Below, piece after piece: positions 42,300 through 62,211 of a stretch of 64,000 bases of DNA. The DNA is taken from the NCBI GenBank assembly GCA_009773205.1, contig WPAE01000007.1, forward strand, positions 124,001 through 188,000, read 5' to 3'. This DNA comes from Ignavibacteria bacterium. Lineage in GTDB: Bacteria; Bacteroidota; Ignavibacteria; Ignavibacteriales; Melioribacteraceae. Below the pieces are notes generated by a model that worked only from the letters and a program-made list of their open reading frames with translations, was not told where the DNA came from and did not search any database. Both the position numbers and the translations under genes were made by a program. The first letter of the stretch is position 1. Each line of letters starts with the position of its first letter.

Positions 42300-44288
42300 C
42301 TACTCCGTTCTAAAAAACATTTTTGAAAATGTCTTACCAAGAATTTCTATGTCTAACCAAAAATTTTGATTCCTAGCATAAAAAATTTCTAATTTTTTTA
42401 TTTCATCGAAATCCGGCTGGGTAAATCCCTCTATAAACCATAATCCAGTTAAGCCAACTTTACCTACATACAAACTATCATGGTAAGAAGAGGTTTGTGC
42501 CCCTACAAAAGATTTATTTCCAACACACACTTGCGGAAGGCCTAGTATAAATTGAGTAAAAGCACCTTTTTTTGATGTTAACTTCTGAAACAAATATATA
42601 AACGGATAAAGCAAAAATAAAGCCAAGATACCTGCAGATAGATCGAAGAATCTTTTGGTTATTCTGTTACTCAAAGCAGAAACATTATAATTTACTTTTA
42701 ACAAAGACATATCATCTAGCATTGTCATCGAGGATTTGCCGACGAGATAATCTAACTCTTTACCAACAACAAGAAATTCAACATTAAGCCCTTGGCATGC
42801 AGATACCACTGAGAACATTTGATTAAAGTGAATATCATCTGATGAAAAAATGACTTTGTCTATCTTCTCTTCTTCAATTATTTTCTTTAGGTTTTCTGTT
42901 GAGCCGAGAAACTGATAAGCGCCCAATTTTTCGCCTATTGATTTTCTGGAAAGCCCGATAAAGCCGATTATGTGATAAAGTTTTACAACGCTGGATTTAA
43001 GTTTAGCAGCTACATCTTCAATGCGGTTTTCGCTTCCTACAATAAGAGTTCTTGCTTTCTTTGTATCGGCTTTCAAACCAAACTTGAAAATTACCTTAAG
43101 CAGAATGCGCCATAGTAGAAAAACTACAAAACAAACAGAGTATGTAATAAGAACAACAGCGCGGCTAAAACCAAACTGCTTAAAGAAATATGTAGCTGCA
43201 GAAAGAAAGAGCAATCCGTAAACAAGTGAAATAAACATCCTCGATACGGAAATTGTATTTTTCTTGTAAGCGCCGCTTAGAAGAGAAATGAAAACTTGTA
43301 TTAGCGAAGGCACAAAGTAAACCCACGGCTTAGCGTAATAAGGAAATCCATTTGTTCGTGATTCTAAGTATAATTTTTCTGCAACAATAACAACCGAAGA
43401 GTAGACAGTCAGATCGGCAATAACTGAAATTATAGAAAGTTTATAAACGTTGGCAAAAGCAATCAGTTTTCTAAAAACTATTGCCATCTGAAGAATTGAT
43501 TCAACAATGAAAGAAGTAGAGAAATGTTTTTTTACAAAAAGGTGCATTGCATCGTAAAATACTTTTGTTTCATCTATGCTGCTCCTCTTAGTGCTTTCAC
43601 CTTTATAGTGTATTATTTCTGTTTCGTGAACGTAAAAAACTTTGAAACCGGCTTGCTGGGTTCTGTAACACAAATCTAAATCTTCGCCATACATAAAAAA
43701 CTGTGGATCGAAGCCGCCGATTTTATCATATACTTCACGCCGCATCATCATAAAAGCACCGCTTACTGCATCAACTTCGTAAGTTTGATTTTCATCTAAA
43801 TAGGTAAGGTTGTAACGTGCAAATAATTTGCTTTTAGGAAACAGCGAACTTAATCCCATAACTTTTGTAAATGAAGTCCAAGGACCGGGAAAACCTCTTC
43901 TGCATGCAAGCTGTAAAGAACCATCTGGATTAAGAACCTTACAGCCAGCAATTCCGCAAATTGGATTCGTTTCAAAAAAGTTTATCATTTTAGAAAAAGT
44001 ATCTTCTCTAACAATTGTGTCCGGATTAATCAGAAGAAAGAATTTTCCTTTTGCAAGTTCCAAAGCTTGATTATTAGCAGCGCCAAAGCCAACATTTTTT
44101 TTGTTGTCAATCAGATTAATTGAAGGAAACTTTTCTCTGATTGCTTCAACACTCCCGTCATCGGAAGCATTATCAACTACAAAAATTTCTGTTGATAAGT
44201 TAGAGGAAGCTTTTGAAATAGAACCGAGAAGATTCAGAACGAATTCTTTTACATTGTAATTAACTATTATAATAGATAGCTCAATCAT
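42300..44288 (-). CDS. GT2 glycosyltransferase fused to a degenerate glycosylphosphotransferase
   Basis: A 662-residue fusion. Residues 1-250 are a GT2 enzyme ([36 protein letters not shown], and [18 protein letters not shown]), resembling rhamnosyltransferases. Then come four membrane helices (about 275-400), a CoA-binding-like domain ([18 protein letters not shown]) and a C-terminal domain opening [20 protein letters not shown] and ending GLTGLW and [12 protein letters not shown], as in bacterial sugar transferases. The central core (KFRSM and DELPQ region) is absent, so this end has probably lost phosphosugar transfer. It may be a stabilising or regulatory remnant. Confidence 0.8.
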
Positions 44289-44294
44289 TCTGAG

Positions 44295-45011
44295 TTAGTT
44301 TAGTTTTCCAAAGATGCTTTTTAATCTTAGCTTCCAAACCATAAAGATTGCTTCAACTACAATTTTCTTGGACATTTTAGAAGTTCCTTCTACACGATCT
44401 ACAAAAGTTATTGGTATTTCTAAAATATTAAAACCAAGTTTGTATGCTTTGTAATTCATCTCAATCTGGAATGAATAACCATTAGAATGAATTTTATCCA
44501 AATTAATTGCGCTTAAAACTTCTTTTCGGAAGCACTTAAATCCGCCGGTGCCATCTTTAATAGGCATTGAAGTAATAATTCTAGAATAAAGATTTGCACA
44601 ATAGCTTAATATAAGTCTTCCAATGGGCCAGTTAATAACACGAACGCCGAAAATGTAACGGCTTCCAATAACTAAATCATATCGTTTAATCGAATCGAGA
44701 AAGTTTTCTATTTCCTGCGGGTCGTGAGAGTAATCGGCATCCATTTGTATGGCATAATCGTAATCGTTTGCAAGCATATATTTAAAACCGGCAACGTATG
44801 CTGTGCCAAGTCCCATTTTACCTTCACGCTCAATAATTTTAATTCTAGAAATTGATTTAGCAGCTTCTTTAACCCAGCCGGCAGTACCGTCCGGAGAGTT
44901 ATCATCAACAACTAAAACATCAACTGAAGGAAATGAACTGAGAATATCCGGCAATAATTTTTTAACGTTATGTAATTCATTATAAGTTGGAATAATCACG
45001 AGAGTTTTCAT
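44295..45011 (-). CDS. Polyprenol-phosphate mannosyltransferase-like GT2
   Basis: A 238-residue GT2 enzyme of the dolichol-phosphate-mannose-synthase type: IPTYNELHNVKKLLPDILSS, VDDNSPDGTAGWVKEAAK, and the catalytic QMDADYSHDPQEI. It loads a sugar (classically mannose from GDP-mannose) onto polyprenyl phosphate for later transfer in the periplasm. It has no C-terminal membrane helices, so it is the soluble class. It overlaps the downstream end of the glycosylphosphotransferase by 4 bases. Confidence 0.88.
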   Translation of the reverse strand: MKTLVIIPTYNELHNVKKLLPDILSSFPSVDVLVVDDNSPDGTAGWVKEAAKSISRIKIIEREGKMGLGTAYVAGFKYMLANDYDYAIQMDADYSHDPQEIENFLDSIKRYDLVIGSRYIFGVRVINWPIGRLILSYCANLYSRIITSMPIKDGTGGFKCFRKEVLSAINLDKIHSNGYSFQIEMNYKAYKLGFNILEIPITFVDRVEGTSKMSKKIVVEAIFMVWKLRLKSIFGKLN

Positions 45012-46411
45012 TCGTAATGCCCTTTGCCAAAAAATACTACGAAAACAGTTTTGAAAATAATTTTGAAATCCAGGCGTAAACTCATGTTCTCAATATAAAA
45101 TAAATCATAACGAAGTTTTACTTTAACGTCTTCAATTGTTTCATCGTATTTGTGTTTTACTTGAGCCCATCCAGTTATTCCCGGTCTAACTTTTAACCTT
45201 CTTTTATACAATGGAACTTCGTGAGAAAGCTTCTCAACAAAGAAAGGTCTTTCCGGTCTTGGTCCTACAAAACTCATATCACCCTTTAGCACGTTGTAAG
45301 CCTGCGGAATTTCATCTAACCGAAACTTGCGGACATATTTACCAATTCGTGTAATTCGAGGATCGTCTTTAGTTGACCAAACAGGTCCGGTATGTTTTTC
45401 TGCATCTATATACATTGTTCTAAATTTTAAAATGCGAAAGATTTTCCCGTTAAGTCCGCTTCTTTCCTGGCGATAAAACACTGGTCCAATGCTATCTAAT
45501 TTTATTAGTAAGGCAGTAAATATCATTACAGGAAGAGTAAGTAGAAGCATAATTAAGGAAAGAACAACATCCATTACTCTTTTTAATTTTTTTTCCCATT
45601 CCGGCATCAGTTCTGGCATAATATCAATAAGAGGAAAGCTGTAGAGTTGAGAGATTTTTGCCTGCCCGCTTATTATTTCATAAAGATCCGGAACCATTTT
45701 AATTTCTATGTTCTTATCACCGCATCGTTCAATTACATCAACAATAATGTCTTCTTCATTTCTTCCAAGAGAAATTATAATGTTGGCTATATTTTTTTCA
45801 TCAATTACTTTTTCAAGATTGGCAACTACATCAATTACTTTTATGCCCTTGTATTCTTTTCCAATTTCCTCATCGTGTGCTGCTGTATAAGCTACAACAT
45901 CTAGCCCAAGCTGCCTAAACCTTATTACAGAATCGTGTACTTCGTTTGCTTTTTTATTGAAGCCGACAATTAAAGCATTTCTTCTGCCATAGCCTCTTGT
46001 AAGGAGTTGTCTTTGTAAACTACGGATAAATAGTCTTCCAATTCCAACTGCAACAAAAAAGATTCCCCAATAAAAGAAAATAAAAAAGCGGTTTGCAGAT
46101 TGAACATCGCGTACATAATCATCATATAGAATGATGAAAAAGATTATAAAAATACCAACGAAAGTAGTTTTGAATAAAGTGGAAATTTCATCTAAACGGG
46201 AAAGAGCAAACCATGTTCTATACATTCCAACGAAAGTAAAGACAACTATCCAGTAAAAATATATTGCGAACATAGGCAGCAGAAAATCTGGCTGAGAGAT
46301 TAAGGAAAACCAGCCGGTTTCTACACGCAGATAGAAAAAAAGAAGCCAAGCAAAGTTTATTGTAACAAAATCTGTTAGAAGGACAAATATTTTTTCAATT
46401 TTTTTATTCAT
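45008..46411 (-). CDS. Polyprenyl glycosylphosphotransferase
   Basis: A 467-residue enzyme that transfers a sugar-1-phosphate to undecaprenyl phosphate, starting repeat-unit synthesis. It has N-terminal membrane helices (about 1-125), a CoA-binding-like segment (GRRNALIVGFNKKANEVHDS), one further helix, and the complete sugar transferase domain: GPVFYRQERSGLNGKIFRIL, KFRTMYIDAEKH, RKFRLDEIPQAYNVLKGDMS, FVGPRPERPFFVEKL and RPGITGWAQVK. The sugar cannot be read from sequence. Confidence 0.93.
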   Translation of the reverse strand: MNKKIEKIFVLLTDFVTINFAWLLFFYLRVETGWFSLISQPDFLLPMFAIYFYWIVVFTFVGMYRTWFALSRLDEISTLFKTTFVGIFIIFFIILYDDYVRDVQSANRFFIFFYWGIFFVAVGIGRLFIRSLQRQLLTRGYGRRNALIVGFNKKANEVHDSVIRFRQLGLDVVAYTAAHDEEIGKEYKGIKVIDVVANLEKVIDEKNIANIIISLGRNEEDIIVDVIERCGDKNIEIKMVPDLYEIISGQAKISQLYSFPLIDIMPELMPEWEKKLKRVMDVVLSLIMLLLTLPVMIFTALLIKLDSIGPVFYRQERSGLNGKIFRILKFRTMYIDAEKHTGPVWSTKDDPRITRIGKYVRKFRLDEIPQAYNVLKGDMSFVGPRPERPFFVEKLSHEVPLYKRRLKVRPGITGWAQVKHKYDETIEDVKVKLRYDLFYIENMSLRLDFKIIFKTVFVVFFGKGHYE

Positions 46412-47678: not shown

Positions 47679-47836
47679 TCACACCTGCTTGCAGCAGGCA
47701 AGCTGAGTCAATCGCCCGCCTGATGAGCCGACGGCGTCCGCCTCGGCAAGCCGTAGGCGAGACGGCGAGGCAGGAAGTGTGGCAATTTCGTTTGTAGTGT
47801 CATGGTTCGACAAACCCTGTCATGAGCTTGGCTGCC
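47679..47836. repeat. GC-rich palindromic repeat in a divergent promoter region
   Basis: In the 321-base gap between lhgO and the ligase-like gene, this 150-base block is much richer in GC than its surroundings. It contains nested palindromes: CCTGC TTGCA GCAGG (47684-47698), CCTCG...CGAGG with inner CCGT...ACGG (within 47741-47770), and a TGTCATGGTTCGACAAACCC motif near 47799-47818. It has no ORF. It looks like an inserted repetitive unit of the kind seen scattered between genes; copy number elsewhere cannot be judged. Confidence 0.6.
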
Positions 47837-47951: not shown

Positions 47952-50015
47952 ATGATAGAAACCTTAAACAAAAAGATAGAGCTGATTGACAAATTAATTT
48001 ACTTCTTTGCAATTCTTTTTTTGGCAACTCTTAATAATTCTATTTTCTTAAACCAGTTTGGCTACTTTGTTCCTTTATTGCTGCTGCTGCTCAAATTCTA
48101 TTTAACTAAGCAAAATCCATTTTCAAAAACCAAATTAGAACCGGTTTTTATTTTATTCATTATAGCGGAAATTGTTTCTACTATTTTTTCTATTAACCGG
48201 CCTGATGCAATACACAACATGAGCAAGAGATTTTTGCTAATTCCTACACTATATGTTTTTTCTACAGTTGCTTATAATTTTGAACGTGCCAAGAAATTTG
48301 TGTTAATCTATTTAGGCGCTGCTTTATTAACTATGTCTGTTTATATAGGATTTTCATATAATTATTATGTTCAAGGATTTTACCATTTGTTTGAGTCGGG
48401 ACCGGGCGTTTTTCAGTATCCAATTACTTCTAGCGAGTTGATGAGTTTTTCGTTGATAATCTTATTTGCTTTTCTGATTAACGAAAAGCTATCTCTTACT
48501 AAAAGAAGCGGAGTTGCATTAGCATTCTTAATTAACCTTGCTGCATTGTTAGCTACTTATAAAAGAACCGGCTGGATGGCTGCTGCAGCTGGAATGTTGT
48601 TTGTTATTCTCCTTGGCAAAAAATGGAAACTGCTTATTCCACTTTTAGTATTCTTTGTAATATTAGCGTTGATTGAAAAAAATGTGAGCAAAGTAGTTAT
48701 CTATGAACTAAGCAGTAATATAATAGAAGTAAGCAAAGAAATAAATACCAAGGGAAGAGCTTACAATGTACTGCCAAATTCATCTTCGCTTTACATTTCC
48801 GATTTTGAGAATGGGCTAAATAAACATGTAAACGCTTCCGCCACAAAAGTGTATGATACTGGAACTCCGGTTGTTAGCTTTAAGCACTGGAAGGATAATT
48901 TTTATTTAGCGTATTTAGTTGATACAAGGTTTATTCTGCTTCAAAAAGATTCAACAGATCAATTTACGGAAGTAAATGAAACAATCACTTCCGGTTTTAC
49001 AGAAGATTGGTACGTCGCCAATAATTATGTTTATGTAGTTGATAAAGATAGTGGTCTAACCATAATAAAGGATCCGCTAAATTTAAAATCGGTTTTTAGA
49101 ATTACCGGCGAGGTTTTAAAAGACTACAAAAAGGTTTATGCAGATTCTTTACACCTTGTTCTATTTTCTAAAACACAGACTTTAACTATCTACAATTTGA
49201 TAAACGGTTTACCAACCGATTTGGCAATACAGAAAATAATGAGCGAAGGCAGCAATCTTGTTTTCTATAAAAATAATAGAATTATAATTTCATCTCAAAA
49301 CGGATTAGAGCTTTATAAAATTTCTGGTAATAAACTAGAACTTCTTGAAACTAACTCAACTATTAACGGCGCATTCTTAGCTTGTGTTAATTCGAGAAGT
49401 CTGTTTATCACAACTACCAGAGGAAATGTGTTTGAATTTTCAGAAGATATTCAAAATCTCAAAACAACAAACTCTTTCAACCTTGGCTTTACTCCAAGAA
49501 GCACAGCAGCTACTGAGAATCAGTTTGTGGTTAGCTATATAAAGCGAAATAGAATTCTGAGTTCATTTGATCCTTATGCGCCATCTAATTTTTCGAGACT
49601 TGCTTTGTGGCGCGCGGGCTTGTTGATTTGGAAGGACTATCCTTTCTTTGGCGTGGGAGATATTGACTTGGCTGTTCTATACCGCCAGTACAAGCGCCCT
49701 TTCGATAAAGAAATACAAGGACATTTGCACAATAATTACTTTCATATTCTAGCAACACTTGGCTTGTTTGGTTTTATAGCTGTAATGATTCTATTGATAA
49801 AGATGTTTTTCTTGCATATTAATAACTATAAACTCACTGCTCATATTCCCTTTGCTTCTTCTTTTACTTTGGGCGCGAGCGGCTGTTTTATCGCATTTGT
49901 AATAGCGGGACTAACAGAGTGGAATTTTGGCGATCATGAAATTATAACAATGGTTTGGTTTACTTTAGCTTTAAGTATTGCCTTTGCAAAAAACAGTAAA
50001 TCAATATCAAGCTGA
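47952..50015 (+). CDS. O-antigen-ligase-type membrane protein with inserted beta-rich domain
   Basis: A 687-residue Wzy_C/WaaL-type protein. About ten membrane helices span residues 15-245 and three more the C-terminal 75. Between them, about residues 250-550 form one long extracytoplasmic domain with repeating strands (GTPVVSFKHWKDNFYLAYLV, YVYVVDKDSGLTIIKDP, TLTIYNLINGL, NRIIISSQNGLELYKIS) resembling beta-propeller blades. The ligase core resumes with LALWRAGLLIWKDYPFFGVG and a conserved His in GHLHNNYFHILATLG. It probably joins or polymerises lipid-linked glycans; the propeller is unusual. Confidence 0.8.
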   Translation: MIETLNKKIELIDKLIYFFAILFLATLNNSIFLNQFGYFVPLLLLLLKFYLTKQNPFSKTKLEPVFILFIIAEIVSTIFSINRPDAIHNMSKRFLLIPTLYVFSTVAYNFERAKKFVLIYLGAALLTMSVYIGFSYNYYVQGFYHLFESGPGVFQYPITSSELMSFSLIILFAFLINEKLSLTKRSGVALAFLINLAALLATYKRTGWMAAAAGMLFVILLGKKWKLLIPLLVFFVILALIEKNVSKVVIYELSSNIIEVSKEINTKGRAYNVLPNSSSLYISDFENGLNKHVNASATKVYDTGTPVVSFKHWKDNFYLAYLVDTRFILLQKDSTDQFTEVNETITSGFTEDWYVANNYVYVVDKDSGLTIIKDPLNLKSVFRITGEVLKDYKKVYADSLHLVLFSKTQTLTIYNLINGLPTDLAIQKIMSEGSNLVFYKNNRIIISSQNGLELYKISGNKLELLETNSTINGAFLACVNSRSLFITTTRGNVFEFSEDIQNLKTTNSFNLGFTPRSTAATENQFVVSYIKRNRILSSFDPYAPSNFSRLALWRAGLLIWKDYPFFGVGDIDLAVLYRQYKRPFDKEIQGHLHNNYFHILATLGLFGFIAVMILLIKMFFLHINNYKLTAHIPFASSFTLGASGCFIAFVIAGLTEWNFGDHEIITMVWFTLALSIAFAKNSKSISS

Positions 50016-51410
50016 TTAATAACCTTTTGTATTGCCTGTGAGCATTTGCCAAACAGTTAAAACTATAATTTGAAAGTCCAGGCCGATGCTCCAGTTTTCT
50101 ATGTACCACAAATCAAATTCTATTCTTTTAATGGTTCTCTTTTTGTTTTCTTCAAAGTCTTCAACATCGCCGCGCAAGCCGTGTACTTGAGCCCAGCCTG
50201 TTAAACCCGGTTTTACTGTATGTCTCATTTTTATTGCTTCAAAGTATTGCAGATATTCTTCGTTGTAAGCAATAGCGTGCGGGCGTGGACCAACTATTGA
50301 CATTTCGCCTTTGAGCACATTCCAAAACTGCGGAAGCTCATCCAGATTAGATTTTCTTAAGAACTTACCAATCTTTGTTATCCGCGGATCCTCTTTTGTG
50401 GTTACAACAAACAATTTGGATTGGTCAATATTGTTTCTCATAGAACGAAATTTGTAACATCGAAACTTTTCATTCTTTAGCCCAACTCTATCTTGAGCGA
50501 AAAAAACAGTACCTTTTGAAGTGAGCTTAACAATTAAAGACAGAATTGGGATTAGCCAAGAGAACAATAAAACCGAAAGAAAGAGTGAGAATAGAATATC
50601 GAATGTTCGTTTTAATAATCTCCAGTGAAACTCACCAAGCGGTTCTTCTCTAACTGTAATTATTGGAAATCCGGCAACATTGTTCACCGAAAATTTTCTC
50701 GAAAGAAATTGAAAATAATCGGGTATAATGTGAACTCGTACAGCATTCTTGTTACACAGCGAAATAATTCTATTTAATTTTTCCGGAGTTATATGCGGAA
50801 TTGCAACAACAGCTTCATCAATTTCTTCCGAGTGAAGAATTTCGTCTAAATTTTCTACCAGCCCAATTACATGTTTGTTTTCCTCTGTGTAATCAACAAA
50901 TCCAACAAAAGTAAAACCAAAATCTAGATTATGATTAATCATATTTAGATAATCAATTCCAATTTGGTTTTCTCCAATTATTAAAAGCCTCTTAAGATTT
51001 TTTCCTCTTTTTTGCAAAGAATGCTGCACATAACGAAAAACGTACGTTCTTGCAAACACACCTAAGTTTAGTAAAATGAAATAAAACAGAATAAAGCTTC
51101 GTGTAAATAAATCTTCTTTTAGAATAAAGATGAAAAACACAGATACTAAAATTTGAGTAATGCTGTTCTTTAAAATAATTACAGCCTTGTAAGAATAAGT
51201 GGTTAAATTATAAGAATCGTAAAAGCCGGTTATGTTAGTTGAAAAGAGCCAAAGCAGGTTCAGAATCAATTGAAGAATGAACATATTGGGGCGCGATTCC
51301 AAAATGCTGAAAGACTGTGCAAGCGCTGCAGAACAAACAAAACTTACGTTCAGTATTAGAATATCTAAGATTACTTTTAAAAGAAGCTGCGATTTTCTGT
51401 TAGTTATCAT
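50016..51410 (-). CDS. Second polyprenyl glycosylphosphotransferase
   Basis: A 464-residue enzyme with the same domain order as the one at 45008: membrane helices (about 1-125), a CoA-binding-like segment (RLLIIGENQIGIDYLNMINH), then a helix and the complete sugar transferase domain (AQDRVGLKNEKFRCYKFRSM, RKSNLDELPQFWNVLKGEMS, IVGPRPHAIAYNEEY, KPGLTGWAQVHGLRGDVEDF). It resembles WcaJ/UDP-glucose-type transferases. Its stop abuts the convergent ligase stop with no base between. Two initiating enzymes imply two glycans. Confidence 0.93.
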   Translation of the reverse strand: MITNRKSQLLLKVILDILILNVSFVCSAALAQSFSILESRPNMFILQLILNLLWLFSTNITGFYDSYNLTTYSYKAVIILKNSITQILVSVFFIFILKEDLFTRSFILFYFILLNLGVFARTYVFRYVQHSLQKRGKNLKRLLIIGENQIGIDYLNMINHNLDFGFTFVGFVDYTEENKHVIGLVENLDEILHSEEIDEAVVAIPHITPEKLNRIISLCNKNAVRVHIIPDYFQFLSRKFSVNNVAGFPIITVREEPLGEFHWRLLKRTFDILFSLFLSVLLFSWLIPILSLIVKLTSKGTVFFAQDRVGLKNEKFRCYKFRSMRNNIDQSKLFVVTTKEDPRITKIGKFLRKSNLDELPQFWNVLKGEMSIVGPRPHAIAYNEEYLQYFEAIKMRHTVKPGLTGWAQVHGLRGDVEDFEENKKRTIKRIEFDLWYIENWSIGLDFQIIVLTVWQMLTGNTKGY

Positions 51411-51419
51411 TATCTCTAA

Positions 51420-52472
51420 TTAGTTAACTGTAATTGAAGGATTCTTTCCAAAATTATTTTTACTATAATGTAAAACTTTGCTAATAACTAATTCAACAGA
51501 AATATTTTTCATACAAAGATTATTATAACACTTTGCAAAATTTATTCCATCGTAACAAGGAGAGCAAGAAAGTTCTTTCCCTTGCCAAATTACATCCACA
51601 TTTTCCTTAGGCGAAACTCTTTCTTTCCAATTTACGGGACCAAATAAAGCAATTATTTTAATTTGTGAAAGTTTTGCTAAATGCAGAACGCCAGTATCAT
51701 GTGTAATTAAAAGATTAGAATTATTAAACAGTTGTATTAATTCAATCAAGTTTTTTTTGCCGACAAGGTTTTCTATTTCTAAGTTGTAAAAGTATTCGTT
51801 TACCCAATTATCTGTTTCCGAACCAATTATAGAAACTTTATAGCCATACTCCAATAATTGTTTAGCTGTTTGAAAGTAGTTTTCTATTTGCCAGCGGCGT
51901 AAAGCATCGTCACGTAAAATATTTTTCGCACCTCCAGGCGCAAGAATAACTCTGTCTTTTGAAAGCTCGGTCTTAGGTTCTGCAATATTTTCGATCTGAA
52001 GACTCGGGAAACCATAATTTTTTGTGTGCGAGGAATCTTTGCCGAGTAAAACTCTGCAATATTCATCTGAATGATAACACTCTTTCAAGAATGTTTTATC
52101 TCCTGAGCCGGAAAAATCAATATACATTTTAGATAGAACAGGCAGAAGCAAATGTTTGTAAAGCTTATTCCTATATCCATTAAATACAATATCATAATGA
52201 TCCAAGAATACTTTTCGCCATAAATCCAACACTTGAAAAAGTTTTTGAAAGAGACTGCCCGTATAAAGTTTTTTGTCGTCAATAACAATTATTCTATCTA
52301 TTCCAATTACTCTTTCCAGCAGAGGAAGTACAGTTTTGCCGCAAATCCAGGTTACTTTTGTTTCACCAAATTCTTCACGTATAGCATTAATCATGCTTAA
52401 TGCCATAACAACATCGCCAATTGCGCCAAGTTTTAGTATTAGAATTTTTTTTGCAGCCAAGTTTGAAGCCAA
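51420..52472 (-). CDS. Glycosyltransferase family 9 protein
   Basis: A 350-residue GT9 enzyme with ILILKLGAIGDVVMALSMIN and the sugar-nucleotide site VILAPGGAKNILRD, IGSETDNWVNEYF, NLLITHDTGVLHLA and the ALFGPVNWKERVSP loop. It likely adds a heptose-like sugar to the growing glycan. The reading frame starts at TTG (52472), or possibly at a second TTG 12 bases on; no ATG is near. It is followed after 9 bases by the second glycosylphosphotransferase. Confidence 0.88.
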   Translation of the reverse strand: MASNLAAKKILILKLGAIGDVVMALSMINAIREEFGETKVTWICGKTVLPLLERVIGIDRIIVIDDKKLYTGSLFQKLFQVLDLWRKVFLDHYDIVFNGYRNKLYKHLLLPVLSKMYIDFSGSGDKTFLKECYHSDEYCRVLLGKDSSHTKNYGFPSLQIENIAEPKTELSKDRVILAPGGAKNILRDDALRRWQIENYFQTAKQLLEYGYKVSIIGSETDNWVNEYFYNLEIENLVGKKNLIELIQLFNNSNLLITHDTGVLHLAKLSQIKIIALFGPVNWKERVSPKENVDVIWQGKELSCSPCYDGINFAKCYNNLCMKNISVELVISKVLHYSKNNFGKNPSITVN

Positions 52473-52543: not shown

Positions 52544-53359
52544 ATGATTTCCATCATCATAATCCAATATAACAGTCAAGAGCTAACTACACAAGCCATT
52601 GATTCTATCAAGAAACATCTTACCGGTAATTACGAAATTATTGTGGTAGATAATGCTTCGCCCAATTCTGACTTAGAACAATTGCTTAGTGCGCATCAAG
52701 ATATAAATCTAATTAGAAATAAAGAGAACTATGGGTTTGGAAAAGCCAACAACATTGCGGCTGAACAAGCAAAGGGAGATATATTTTTATTTCTGAATAA
52801 TGATACAATTGTAAAATCAAATTTCATTCCTTTTGTTGAATCATGTTTTGAAAATGAACAAGACTTAGGCGGTTTGGCTCCAAAACTCTTGAACGCAGAT
52901 GGAACTTTGCAAATTTCGGTTGGCCCGCTTCCATCAATAGTAACTGAATTTTGGGTAAAATTTTCCTCAAATCTTTTTTATAGAAAGCGCGAACCATTTT
53001 TAAGTTATTTTAATAAATATTATTCTACTTGCCATGATGTAGATTTTGCAACGGGCGCAGCATTCTTTATGAAGAAAAATACTTTTGAGATAATTGAAGG
53101 ATTTGACGAAAATATTTTTATGTACTTCGATGACTCGATTCTATGCAAAAAAATTAAAGAGCTTGGTTTTAGAATTCACTACACGCCAGAGTTTGAAATT
53201 ACACACTACGGCGGTGCAAGTTGGAATGAACAAATTACTACTTTCTTAGAAAAGCATTACCGCAAGAGTCAGCTTTATTATTATAAAAAATACAGACCAG
53301 CTATTGAAAATTTTCTGCTGCGCATTTATCTAAAACTTGCCAATAAAGAAATGGACTAA
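52544..53359 (+). CDS. Glycosyltransferase family 2 (rhamnosyltransferase-like)
   Basis: A 271-residue GT2 enzyme: ISIIIIQYNSQELTTQAIDS, VVDNASPNSDLEQLL, the DxD-like FLNNDTIVKSNFIPF, and GFDENIFMYFDDSILCKKIK. It adds a sugar from a nucleotide donor to the lipid-linked glycan on the cytoplasmic side. It forms a two-gene plus-strand unit with the flippase whose start overlaps its end by 23 bases. Confidence 0.9.
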   Translation: MISIIIIQYNSQELTTQAIDSIKKHLTGNYEIIVVDNASPNSDLEQLLSAHQDINLIRNKENYGFGKANNIAAEQAKGDIFLFLNNDTIVKSNFIPFVESCFENEQDLGGLAPKLLNADGTLQISVGPLPSIVTEFWVKFSSNLFYRKREPFLSYFNKYYSTCHDVDFATGAAFFMKKNTFEIIEGFDENIFMYFDDSILCKKIKELGFRIHYTPEFEITHYGGASWNEQITTFLEKHYRKSQLYYYKKYRPAIENFLLRIYLKLANKEMD

Positions 53360-54908
53360 TAGTTTGCATAGGAAATGGCTTCTCGGATTTATTAGCTTAA
53401 GCGTGCTTGCATTTGTAGGAAGAATAACCGGTTTTTTCCGCGAAGTAATAATGGCTTTTAACTTTGGCGCTGATTCTCTTACAGATGCTTACCTTGCTAC
53501 TTTTATAATATTTGATATTGGAATTGCAATTAACGGCGCTGTCATCACAGGCACTCATTCCTATTTTTCAAGTCATAAAAATGAATCTCTTTTTACAAAT
53601 TGGATGGTTCGATATAGTCATTTTATCCTATTAATACTTTGCTTGTTATTAATGGCTCTAATTCCGTTAATCATTTTCTTAGTTGACATTTCTTTTAATT
53701 ATCCGCTGCACATTAAGCATGTTATTAGCTGGGCTTTAATTTTATTGATATTCTCAACTCTTTTTTTTATTGAAAGCGGGATCTTATCAGCAATACTCCA
53801 AATTAGAGGAAGTATTTCTGCGCCAGGAGGATTAATAGTTTTTACTAATACAGGAGCAATAGCTTCATTACTGATTTGCAGCGAGACTATTGGAATACTA
53901 TCTATACCGGTTGGATTGCTAGTAGGCGCCATCTTTTTCTATGTCTGTCAAATTTATTTAGTAAGATCAAAACACAATAAATTCATCACCAATGAGAAAA
54001 TGAGTTTTAGACCATGGCTCTTATCTGTAGGATTAATATTCGCTTTTCAGTTTTTACCTAGTATAGTAGCTATTGTAGAGAGAATTTTTATTCTACCATA
54101 TGATGAAGGAATTCTATCTTATTATGTATATGCTGGTAGAATATTATTACTACCTGTAACAATAATTGGTTATGCTCTCAGCCTTTCTTTAATTCCAATA
54201 CAAACAAAGTTAATCTCCGAGTCTAATATTACTGACTTTAATAAATTTAGTTATAATGGAATATTGCTTGCCACCTTTATCTCAGGATTTATTTCCGCAA
54301 TATTTATTTTGTTTCCAGAACCAATAGTCAAAATTGTTTATGAAAGAGGATTGTTTGAACCGAGCTATACTAAAAGCACAGCATCTATTCTACGGGTTAT
54401 AAGTCTTTGTCTATTTCCATTCCTTCTGCTGCCTATTTTCTCAAACATATTTTATTCACTAGGCTTATCAAAAAAATTACTTGTTATTGGAATAATCAGT
54501 AGCCTTTGTAATGTTCTTATGATTGTAATTTTGGTTCCAATATTAAGAAATGCCGAAGCACTTGGTATTTCCGCAATTATTGCCGGCTGGAGCAATTTGT
54601 TTATGATGATTATTTATCTTGAGCGAAACAAGAAGTTTTCTTTACCTAGAGTCATAATTAAAAAACTGTCTGTTATCGTTTTAACTTCATTTGCTATAGC
54701 ATTATTTGGATTAGCCGCAATAAATCAGACAAGACTTGTTGAACAATCTTCAAACTGGTCAACAAGTAATAATATTTTTTGCCTTCTAATCAGTGTGGCA
54801 CTTACAGGTATATTATATGTTGTCACCATAATAATTCTTCTACGTAAGTATATTAAAGAATCATATGCCTCAATTTTAGATGCTTTCAAAAGCAAGTATT
54901 TGAAATAA
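53337..54908 (+). CDS. MurJ-like lipid II/polysaccharide flippase
   Basis: A 523-residue protein with about 14 membrane helices. The first one, VLAFVGRITGFFREVIMAFN followed by FGADSLTDAYLATF, is typical of the MurJ/MviN branch of the MOP flippases, and KIVYERGLFEPSYTKSTASI is another MurJ signature. It flips undecaprenyl-linked sugars; here, inside the polysaccharide locus, it more likely serves an exopolysaccharide than peptidoglycan. No ATG is near; translation starts at TTG 53337 (overlapping the GT2 gene) or at TTG 53364, 4 bases after the GT2 stop. Confidence 0.88.
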   Translation: MPIKKWTNSLHRKWLLGFISLSVLAFVGRITGFFREVIMAFNFGADSLTDAYLATFIIFDIGIAINGAVITGTHSYFSSHKNESLFTNWMVRYSHFILLILCLLLMALIPLIIFLVDISFNYPLHIKHVISWALILLIFSTLFFIESGILSAILQIRGSISAPGGLIVFTNTGAIASLLICSETIGILSIPVGLLVGAIFFYVCQIYLVRSKHNKFITNEKMSFRPWLLSVGLIFAFQFLPSIVAIVERIFILPYDEGILSYYVYAGRILLLPVTIIGYALSLSLIPIQTKLISESNITDFNKFSYNGILLATFISGFISAIFILFPEPIVKIVYERGLFEPSYTKSTASILRVISLCLFPFLLLPIFSNIFYSLGLSKKLLVIGIISSLCNVLMIVILVPILRNAEALGISAIIAGWSNLFMMIIYLERNKKFSLPRVIIKKLSVIVLTSFAIALFGLAAINQTRLVEQSSNWSTSNNIFCLLISVALTGILYVVTIIILLRKYIKESYASILDAFKSKYLK

Positions 54909-59507: not shown

Positions 59508-60758
59508 TTACAGTTTATGCTGAGCTACTAAATACTTACTTAAGAAATATATTATTACGATATTCATTACAAAGTGCAGCCAGCTTAACATTGGTATAAA
59601 AAAAGTAAACATTATAACAAACACACACATTCCATAAACAGATATTGAGTGCAGGCTTGGGTTCTTTCTCATCCAATAATAAATGCTTGAGATAGCAAAA
59701 CCGATTGCAAAAGGAAAGAGCAGCAGACCCCAAACACCAAAATCGCGGTAATACACAAAGAACATAGTATATGTATTAAAGCTTTTGTTAACAATAAATG
59801 GAAACTGCTCAAAATAATAAGATTTTGCGATTGTATGCTTTAACCCCGCTAATGCGAGTATAAAATCGAATGTGAAGTAACCGTAAGTAAAAGAATCATA
59901 CTGTTTAACGCTGTTAGCAAAGTTTTCCAAATTCATACTTACATACATATATGGCTCAGTTAAAAAAGCCAGCGATCTGTTATACTTCATCTTAGCTTCC
60001 TTGTACAGATATAGAATAAAAAATTCGCTTGTTCTAATTGTTGAGATAGAATAGATCAATAAAACAAAAGCAGATGAAATACCAAGTAAGTAAGAACCTT
60101 TGAATTTTCTTGTTCCATAGTAGAGCATAACCAACAGCAAAACTATTGTAATTACAAGCGTAAACCGCTGAAGCAATAATATAAAAGAACTCAAAGTAAT
60201 AAGTATAATAATAGCCAATAATAATTTTGTGGCTTTTTTCTTTTTTATAAAAAGATAATATAATAATGCAAAATATATTACTGCTGGTGCGCAATGAATA
60301 ATCAATCCAAATCCAAAAAGACTCCATTTGGTTCTTGCTGTGTTTGGATCATTTGTAAATAATGGTATGAAGCCAACTGCAGAGTAAATTACAATGTACG
60401 ATACGATGTAAGCTAAGAAAAGATAAACAACAACTTGTAATAATCGTTTGCTGTCAAAATCAAAGTTATCCAGAACATTCTTAATACTATTTACAGAATT
60501 TATCGGTTTGTTGAAGTTAATCACATAAACGGCGAACATACCCAGCAACATTGCACTCAAACTAATTAAAAGCATAGCCCAGCTATAAAGCTCCCATTCT
60601 TTTTGAAGCCAGCTAAGCTTTAGCTCTGTAAGACCAATAATTACAGCCCAAATAAAAATAAACAATCGGGCAGGAGAAAATATATCGCTTTGACTTCTTA
60701 AGTAGCTTAAAGCAAGTAGTAAGGCAATCGAAAAAAAGACTATGGCAATTATAGACAT
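59508..60758 (-). CDS. Wzy-type O-antigen/oligosaccharide polymerase
   Basis: A 416-residue inner-membrane protein with about ten helices and a periplasmic loop. The C-terminal third has the family pattern FNTYTMFFVYYRDFGVWGLL followed by FPFAIGFAISSIYY. Such proteins join repeat units at the reducing end in the periplasm. It lies one base after the flippase gene, the usual Wzx-Wzy pairing. Confidence 0.82.
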   Translation of the reverse strand: MSIIAIVFFSIALLLALSYLRSQSDIFSPARLFIFIWAVIIGLTELKLSWLQKEWELYSWAMLLISLSAMLLGMFAVYVINFNKPINSVNSIKNVLDNFDFDSKRLLQVVVYLFLAYIVSYIVIYSAVGFIPLFTNDPNTARTKWSLFGFGLIIHCAPAVIYFALLYYLFIKKKKATKLLLAIIILITLSSFILLLQRFTLVITIVLLLVMLYYGTRKFKGSYLLGISSAFVLLIYSISTIRTSEFFILYLYKEAKMKYNRSLAFLTEPYMYVSMNLENFANSVKQYDSFTYGYFTFDFILALAGLKHTIAKSYYFEQFPFIVNKSFNTYTMFFVYYRDFGVWGLLLFPFAIGFAISSIYYWMRKNPSLHSISVYGMCVFVIMFTFFIPMLSWLHFVMNIVIIYFLSKYLVAQHKL

Positions 60759-60759
60759 A

Positions 60760-62211
60760 TTATTTAGTCCATATTCTTTTAAAGATATTTTTTACTTCGC
60801 TGAATAGAAACTTCCTTTCATATTCGGTTAAATATACGTAAACCGAAATCCCGAAGAATATTGCAATAATTATCAACCCAGCAATTTTCATAGATATAGC
60901 AGCAAAAATCAGTAATGGAATCTCGACCAATACAACTAATAATAAAAATAGACTCTGTTTATTAGCGAACCACGCTTTTAAGATATCTATATTGAACGCA
61001 ACAAAAACTACTCCTACGAATAAATTAGTAATTAGAGAAACTATCGCTGCGCCTTCAGCGCCTAACTTTGGTATAAGAATAATATTCAGAATTAAATTAA
61101 TTAGTGTTGCTATAACTACGGTAAATAGACGAACATATTGTCTACCGGATGTAGTTAGCATTAAAGCAAAAGGTTCCAAAAGAAAGCGCACTAGAATAAT
61201 CAGCGAAAATATTTTTAAAACAGGCGCTGCGGAGACATACTTGATTCCGTAAACAAGAACAATTATATCATCAGCATAAGAAAAAAGTAATAATGATACA
61301 GGCAGAACAATTAGCAGCAATGACTTGCTTAGAAGACTGCTAATACGCTTCCACTCTTCTTTGTTTTCTCCAAAGAGTCTAGTTAAGACCGGAAGTAATA
61401 CATTCATAACAATTTCGGGTATTGCTAATGGCAGCATAATAAATTTAAATACAGCTTGATATATGCCTGTGTCGTATTCTCCTTTAAGTAACATTAATAG
61501 AATTGTATCTAACTGAAAAAAAACGAAGCTGAAAACAAAATGAAACCCGAAGACAAACATTTTATTTCTTAGTTGCCCAAAACCTTGAAACATTGCTCCA
61601 AAGTTTAAGCCGCCTACAAGTAGAGAAGAATAATTGACAGCAAGGCAAAGTCCCAAAATTCTTGCGGCGATAAAAACGATTGCGACTAAAATAATGTGAG
61701 CTTTGAAGACTAACAGAATTGGTAGAATAACTACAAGTGTTCCATTCATTATAAAAGAAACTTTCATTTCATAGCCGAGATTTTCAACTCCTCTAAAAAG
61801 TGCAAAGATAAAATTTGTTAAAGTAGTTGATGCTAAGAAGAAAGTAAAAAGAAATACAAGTATTCTAACATCATCGCTCGAGTGCATTATAACAGCAAAA
61901 AAAAGCATTCCCACCATAGTGAAAAACGTAAATAATATTTTATAGGAAAGCAGGTTTGAAAACACACCGCCAATGTTTTCTCTCTTGGATGAGATTTCTG
62001 TTGTCAAGAACACATCAAAACCAAAATCTGCAATTACAATTAAGGTTGTAGCTAAAGAGTGTGCAAAAGTAAACTGCCCAAAAATGTGCGGATCATAAAC
62101 TCTAGCAAGAAGCCAAAACACAAATACATTTGCAATTAACCTGAACGAAACTGCAAGTATTGAGAAAAATAAATTCTTCTTGGTAGAAACTTTTAAGTTA
62201 TTATCATGCAT
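60760..62211 (-). CDS. Polysaccharide flippase (Wzx)
   Basis: A 483-residue protein with about 14 membrane helices of the MOP superfamily: LFFSILAVSFRLIANVFVFW, then WLLARVYDPHIFGQFTFAHS and the inner helices ending near VLVEIPLLIFAAISMKIAGL. It flips undecaprenyl-linked repeats to the periplasm for the Wzy polymerase next to it. Its first 8 bases overlap the GT4 gene upstream. Confidence 0.88.
   Translation of the reverse strand: MHDNNLKVSTKKNLFFSILAVSFRLIANVFVFWLLARVYDPHIFGQFTFAHSLATTLIVIADFGFDVFLTTEISSKRENIGGVFSNLLSYKILFTFFTMVGMLFFAVIMHSSDDVRILVFLFTFFLASTTLTNFIFALFRGVENLGYEMKVSFIMNGTLVVILPILLVFKAHIILVAIVFIAARILGLCLAVNYSSLLVGGLNFGAMFQGFGQLRNKMFVFGFHFVFSFVFFQLDTILLMLLKGEYDTGIYQAVFKFIMLPLAIPEIVMNVLLPVLTRLFGENKEEWKRISSLLSKSLLLIVLPVSLLLFSYADDIIVLVYGIKYVSAAPVLKIFSLIILVRFLLEPFALMLTTSGRQYVRLFTVVIATLINLILNIILIPKLGAEGAAIVSLITNLFVGVVFVAFNIDILKAWFANKQSLFLLLVVLVEIPLLIFAAISMKIAGLIIIAIFFGISVYVYLTEYERKFLFSEVKNIFKRIWTK

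Follow-up and report, generated by a model that had tools for sequence, protein, structure and literature searches.

The ligase gene and its genomic context

The window, i.e., the whole 64,000-nucleotide stretch of an Ignavibacteria bacterium genome that was analyzed, carries a glycan gene cluster in which a gene for a Wzy_C/WaaL-type membrane protein ends directly against a convergently transcribed neighbor, the stop of the former abutting the latter at position 50016 (Table 1). In addition to the flippase-type and weak polymerase candidate genes of the cluster, further glycosyltransferases are present in the window, and a match to Wzz lies about 300 bases beyond its end. Elsewhere in the genome LpxC is present, and no match was obtained with the LptD-family model, which itself matched just 2 of 14 control genomes and missed the Bacteroides one. 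Relatives of the neighboring sugar-phosphate transferase, as detected by tblastn at 1e-10 within each locus with flanks of 5 kb or less, accompany the ligase in 12 of the 24 full-length insert-bearing loci versus none of the 19 insertless ones.

Table 1. Features of the ligase gene, its encoded protein and the adjoining glycan cluster (positions in the window)
Feature	Position	Strand	Basis
Wzy_C/WaaL-type ligase gene	47952..50015	+	687 aa; ATG start; Pfam Wzy_C
N-terminal membrane half, residues 1-241	47952..48674	+	helices of AlphaFold2 model
R205 (aligned with R191 of 7TPG)	48564..48566	+	profile alignment; R in 44/47
Predicted inserted seven-bladed β-propeller, residues 245-531	48684..49544	+	models, fold matches, profile matches
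Stretch with conserved arc, residues 266-368	48747..49055	+	conservation scores
LVIVD-repeat match, residues 349-372 (blade 3)	48996..49067	+	Pfam PF08309, E 0.0025
C-terminal ligase part, residues 532-687 (remaining catalytic loop and three membrane passes)	49545..50012	+	Pfam, AlphaFold2 model
R549 (aligned with R265 of 7TPG)	49596..49598	+	profile alignment; 47/47
H593, GHLHNN motif (aligned with H313 of 7TPG)	49728..49730	+	profile alignment; 47/47
Initiating sugar-phosphate transferase (Bac_transf), convergent neighbor	50016..51410	-	domain match
Glycosyltransferase family 9 (heptosyltransferase type)	51420..52472	-	domain match
MurJ/MatE-type flippase	53337..54908	+	domain match
Possible polymerase (Wzy), weak	59508..60758	-	PF14296, E 0.0057, below cut-off
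Wzx-type flippase (Polysacc_synt)	60760..62211	-	domain match

Three further observations concern the surroundings of the gene. Two initiating sugar-phosphate transferases flank the ligase, at 45008-46411 and 50016-51410. The stretch at 42300-44288 joins a family-2 glycosyltransferase to a CoA_binding_3 region and to the end of a Bac_transf domain (profile positions 100-178 of 179), which could possibly represent a degenerate initiating transferase fused to a glycosyltransferase. Additionally, a G+C-rich block at 47680-47790, within the otherwise A+T-rich intergenic region preceding the ligase, has the appearance of a dispersed repeat; no second copy of a 22-base piece of it was found in the window.

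Family identity and active-site residues

The protein matches the Pfam Wzy_C profile with E 2.4e-19 (70.1 bits against a cut-off of 31.7) in two stretches, the better of which lies at residues 540-611, and the same domain is found in all 25 insert-bearing relatives (E 0.1 or better). The sole other Wzy_C protein of the genome (L082) has an unsplit match. Among the NCBIfam models the best match is to a putative O-glycosylation ligase family, far below its cut-off (37.3 versus 188.1 bits). Counted from the helices of the AlphaFold2 model, nine membrane passes precede the insert and three follow it, giving 12 in all.

A profile of 22 ligases, 4 with and 18 without the insert, aligns with the WaaL structure 7TPG (E 1.4e-13), with 334 of the 394 profile positions covered. 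This alignment pairs R205, R549 and H593 with R191, R265 and H313 of 7TPG (numbers counted along the chain sequence), which we take to be its functional active-site residues. In the O-antigen ligase active site as described, the diphosphate is held by a pair of arginines, and a histidine serves to activate the acceptor (PMC10920833). R549, H591, H593 and N594 are invariant in all 47 insert-bearing proteins compared, and R205 is retained in 44 of them; an EWNFGDHE motif is common to ligases with and without the insert. The 47 proteins are what remains of 59 sequences upon removal of 12 exact duplicates, the truncated L012, L052, L054, L056, L071, L075, L078 and L087 and the unrelated L080 having been left out of both this count and the tree described below, for which the start of L065 was also trimmed. 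The membrane protein of ligase type recognized by an earlier sequence-only reading of this gene is thus borne out by the Wzy_C match over the cut-off, the 12 model helices and the alignment to 7TPG. On the basis of its family and aligned residues, we infer that it acts as an O-antigen-ligase-type enzyme of the WaaL/GT121 kind.

A predicted seven-bladed β-propeller in the catalytic loop

An uninterrupted catalytic periplasmic loop is an architectural habit of these enzymes rather than a formal criterion, and it is not kept here: a 287-residue insert, spanning residues 245-531, stands at the start of this large loop. The AlphaFold2 model of the whole protein, computed from an alignment of 25 full-length insert-bearing relatives, has a mean pLDDT of 87.3 and a pTM of 0.83, and is made up of helices to residue 241, strands throughout 245-531 and mostly helices afterwards. 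When modeled alone, the insert is an all-β structure of 28 strands (pLDDT 94.0, pTM 0.91). Six blades of four strands each can be delineated at residues 270-301, 307-345, 350-384, 392-429, 437-468 and 474-510, as grouped by us according to loop length, and in the seventh the last two strands of the insert (517-531) join the first two (245-265) to close the ring. The predicted structure hence has seven four-stranded blades with the closure of the ring, its 28 strands being disposed as 2 + 6x4 + 2.

Structure comparisons agree with this anatomy. Foldseek matched, among others, BamB, RCC1, WD40 and designed propellers, and VIA-align, applied to chains pre-chosen by Foldseek, gave the whole model a best Z of 24.2 over 264 residues at 2.7 A, with 985/985 chains at Z 8 or more. 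For the insert alone the best Z, to a solved propeller, was 24.3, with 981/981 chains at Z 8 or more, and the comparison with Escherichia coli YncE yielded Z 22.7 over 260 residues. It is nearly certain, as far as predicted structures go, that the loop of the ligase houses a complete seven-bladed propeller.

The sequence-only reading had placed an insert of repeating strands in the periplasmic loop between the membrane halves, a position seen both in the model and in the alignment to 7TPG, and had suspected a propeller fold that it could not prove; the structure prediction, fold search and blade count that it proposed were carried out and returned 28 strands, seven closed blades and propeller matches. 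Its boundaries need amending at one end: the repeating strands do begin at 245, but the insert ends at 531, as residues 532-560, which it had included, already belong to the ligase. A helical or disordered insert, the outcome it had named as contrary to its proposal, is ruled out by the AlphaFold2 models of both the whole protein and the insert alone. A DNA tandem repeat as the source of the insert was likewise rejected. Long DNA repeats are absent from the open reading frame, the longest direct pair being of 19 nt and the longest, imperfect, inverted arms of 20 nt; hence, the repeats are those of protein structure only.

Sequence affinities of the propeller

The LVIVD-repeat match in blade 3 of the window protein scores 17.6 bits against a cut-off of 20.2 (a six-frame search that included frame neighbors gave 20.2, which was taken as over it), and among 25 relatives five matched this repeat at E 0.1 or lower, the best at 1.6e-06. 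Single relatives match the propeller families NHL, WDR55 and KIB1-4, and six more families were matched by one relative each in what look like chance hits. In the distant f13 group, LVIVD is recovered above the cut-off of 20.2 bits in L090 (48.9 bits, E 4e-13), L086 (27.9) and L088 (22.7), with no match in the fourth member, L089. Further, aspartates recur at positions 284, 324 and 364, i.e., in three blades at a 40-residue spacing.

Profile searches against PDB sequences (E up to 1) matched 7TPG and four other chains with the full alignment, and six chains, the best at 5e-05, with the insert alone; the chains other than 7TPG are presumably all propellers. The window protein by itself recovered no propeller from the PDB sequences, its matches being 7TPG at E 0.035 and three that look like chance (0.39-0.77). 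As to a propeller donor in the same genome, the LVIVD search of that genome matched this gene alone.

Distribution and provenance of the insert

A search of 58 genomes, including that of the window, matched the protein in 31, and the insert was covered in every one of these, with one match divided between two contigs. The 24 other inserts compared are 19-44% identical to that of the window. Chance or artefact was dismissed as an explanation, given that the open frame and its insert recur across many genomes.

Among the 391 class genomes surveyed, 85 match the insert profile at 1e-4. These comprise 29 weak matches and 56 carriers, defined by an insert match at 3.4e-15 or better and having frames of 571-743 residues; 50 of the carriers belong to the window's order (families f1-f3) and six to f13. 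The match spans at least 250 of 288 profile positions in 54 of the 56 carriers; in the other two, G087 and G096, it is partial and the frames are 703 and 692 residues long. At 1e-30, 172 of the 391 genomes match the ligase profile, namely the 56 carriers, G389 and 115 genomes of other families. Within the order, then, the insert is present in 50 of 51 ligase-matching genomes, the 51st, G389, having a weak ligase match without an insert match. Strong insert matches are absent from all 115 genomes outside the carrier families; those with a listed place mostly show frames of about 390-560 residues, along with some fragments, and the weak insert matches, wherever their place and that of the ligase are both listed, fall elsewhere in the genome. 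The existence of relatives in which no insert was found, in 115 of the 391 class genomes, implies that the insert is not needed for the basic reaction. All 19 aligned short homologs have five residues in place of the insert.

A tree built without an outgroup separates 31 insert-bearing proteins from 19 insertless ones on a single branch with 100/100 support, so that a single change suffices. Rooting with an outgroup placed the root inside the insert-bearing rows, which at face value would indicate loss in the short forms; however, this is given little weight because of the great length of both outgroup branches (4.4 and 10). Gain is favored over loss, without the matter being settled, solely since the wider family lacks the insert.

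The insert is thus an old, fixed feature of the order and no peculiarity of one genome. The same insertion had been proposed to be sought in homologs from related genomes, and was found in 31/31 matching genomes and 56 class carriers. The sequence-only reading had also held that its occurrence in all close homologs would speak against it: this is nearly the case within the order (50 of 51), but a sister group in other families is cleanly without it. A recent acquisition by this genome, also considered, is ruled out by the distribution and the tree. Among the order genomes without a protein match or strong insert match, 25 of 27 lack a ligase-profile match at 1e-15 and the remaining two matched distant proteins; within the order it looks as if the whole gene is present or absent rather than the insert being lost.

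In the wider phylum the insert profile matches 29 of 395 genomes at 1e-6, of which 24 are in the order and five are weak matches in frames of 556-1188 residues from families f32 and f41. In the Wzy_C matches that were listed from 80 genomes of the phylum, no large gap splitting the profile was seen outside this family. Two phylum Wzy_C proteins, L098 and L099, have an extra stretch of about 100 residues in about the same loop, which by eye is not propeller-like; judging from these, the catalytic loop may be a place where domains are added more generally.

A conserved arc on the top face

By convention, the b-c and d-a loops of a propeller share its top face. On this face, conservation is concentrated in an arc of six consecutive loops, 266-269, 285-287, 302-306, 323-325, 346-349 and 365-367, the conserved residues of the stretch being T266, G268, D284, G288, P306, D324, R326, G348, D364, D366, S367 and G368. 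The mean Jensen-Shannon conservation of the arc over the 47 sequences is 0.56; the seven top loops outside it average 0.28 and the bottom loops 0.34. Exact rank tests gave 0.00005 against the bottom loops and 0.0006 against the other top loops, the latter being nearer 0.008 as the arc was picked after seeing the data from about 13 possible arcs. With 25 sequences the six arc loop means are 0.53-0.67 and those of the other seven top loops 0.26-0.46. Taken together, all top loops differ from the bottom loops weakly (permutation 0.022), the signal residing in the arc. Since LVIVD blades carry an Asp-Gly turn anyway, a part of this conservation may be structural.

In the model, entry of the chain into the propeller is at the top of strand c and its exit at the top of strand b, both in one blade. 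With both ends on top of one blade, the propeller would hang on the ligase by its top face. The conserved arc hence probably lies beside the attachment and near the active site, a nearness deduced from the strand order of the model.

Outside the propeller, residues 29-39 (48036-48068), near the loop between TM1 and TM2, bear a motif (N29, F32, N34, Q35, G37, Y38) that insert-bearing ligases conserve, while the insertless ones differ there; going by this pattern, the motif is a possible contact of the propeller.

Functional implications and alternatives

These observations allow a mechanism to be proposed, in which the ligase would sit in the inner membrane with its two arginines holding the glycan on undecaprenyl diphosphate, and an acceptor activated by the histidine would receive the glycan. 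The arc would form the roof or a side wall of the active-site groove and could help to recognize or position the acceptor or donor glycan. We consider it an evenly balanced proposition, derived from the modeled geometry, that the propeller is such a roof or wall beside the active site and helps to bind a substrate. Its fuller form, that the propeller is a built-in glycan-recognizing domain, with the arc part of the acceptor or donor site and substrate choice a separable, exchangeable module, is offered tentatively. Binding of the acceptor glycan or of a partner had already been put forward as a possible role by the sequence-only reading.

The propeller might instead be a docking platform for a protein partner (the Lpt bridge, a Wzz/Wzy complex, a sortase or a secretion apparatus) that would link ligation with export or chain length. 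Propellers often bind proteins, BamB, RCC1 and WD40 proteins, themselves partner-binding, are among the best Foldseek matches, and Wzz and a possible polymerase gene belong to the same cluster. However, the conserved loops lie on the face tied to the membrane domain while those of the bottom face average 0.34, and the one neighbor counted, the sugar-phosphate transferase, occurs in only 12 of 24 loci; such a platform appears to us somewhat unlikely. An unlikely reading is that the arc is a mere packing interface between propeller and ligase and the insert a stable passenger without a recognition role. The same-face geometry would suit packing as well as binding, and the 29-39 motif, specific to insert-bearing ligases, could be the opposing contact; yet the arc has a polar make-up (T, D, S, G, R), and the domain has long been kept, nearly whole, in 54 of the 56 carriers.

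Two further alternatives concern the reaction itself. The acceptor recognized by the propeller could be a protein or other envelope polymer in lieu of lipid A-core, as hinted at by the sub-threshold match to the putative O-glycosylation ligase family and by the lack of a match to the LptD-family model, which found 2 of 14 controls; given the presence of LpxC and of a heptosyltransferase-type GT9 gene nearby, this is doubtful. Lastly, polymerases and ligases are related, and the name Wzy_C covers both, so that the window protein might be a Wzy polymerase. This we regard as improbable: a conserved glutamate of the polymerase stands at the place of the ligase histidine in the example superposition given in PMC10920833, and here this position is a histidine, H593, in 47/47 proteins with no glutamate replacing it. 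Moreover, the cluster has a separate, if weak, polymerase candidate, and L082, the other Wzy_C protein of the genome, apparently has a glutamate near the ligase-histidine place, as judged by eye.

Should the propeller indeed recognize glycans, the protein would be a member of this ligase superfamily that has a domain reserved for recognition within the catalytic loop. In our view, the choice of acceptor and donor by O-antigen ligases is hard to study, as recognition is intermingled with the membrane core. The present families provide a matched natural set, in which one lineage has a soluble-looking domain in the loop and its sister lineage a five-residue junction at the same place; the propeller could be made alone for binding studies, and an insert-bearing and insertless pair could be compared.

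Comparison with known systems

No published ligase-propeller architecture was found in the open full-text literature, outside which most subscription journals lie. A parallel on the propeller side is PorZ, reported to bind A-LPS (PMC8545088), the structure of which (5m11) ranks 34 among the whole-model Foldseek matches. It likewise contains propellers but, as PMC8545088 presents it, is a separate cell-surface protein of the type IX system and no ligase; PorZ shows that lipopolysaccharide binding by a propeller protein can occur, and no more. LVIVD, which PMC2447325 describes as a repeat of 42 residues in cell-surface proteins, is akin to the present insert on account of the PF08309 matches in relatives and of Asp 284, 324 and 364. 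The insert differs from that description in lying inside a membrane glycosyltransferase rather than a cell-surface protein.

On the ligase side, WadA is also an O-antigen ligase with an extra globular domain (PMC10920833). Unlike the window protein, it is bimodular with an appended GT25 enzyme domain, and has, in what that source says of it, no propeller within the catalytic loop. The short Wzy_C ligases of this bacterial class (18 among L057-L077, 386-413 aa) share the catalytic columns and the EWNFGDHE motif, whereas they have 5 residues for the insert and a different motif at the TM1-TM2 loop. Finally, WaaL (CAZy GT121; 7TPG/7TPJ) is alike in its Wzy_C profile, 12 membrane helices and aligned pair of arginines and histidine, and the window protein is set apart from it by the 287-residue propeller at the start of the catalytic loop.
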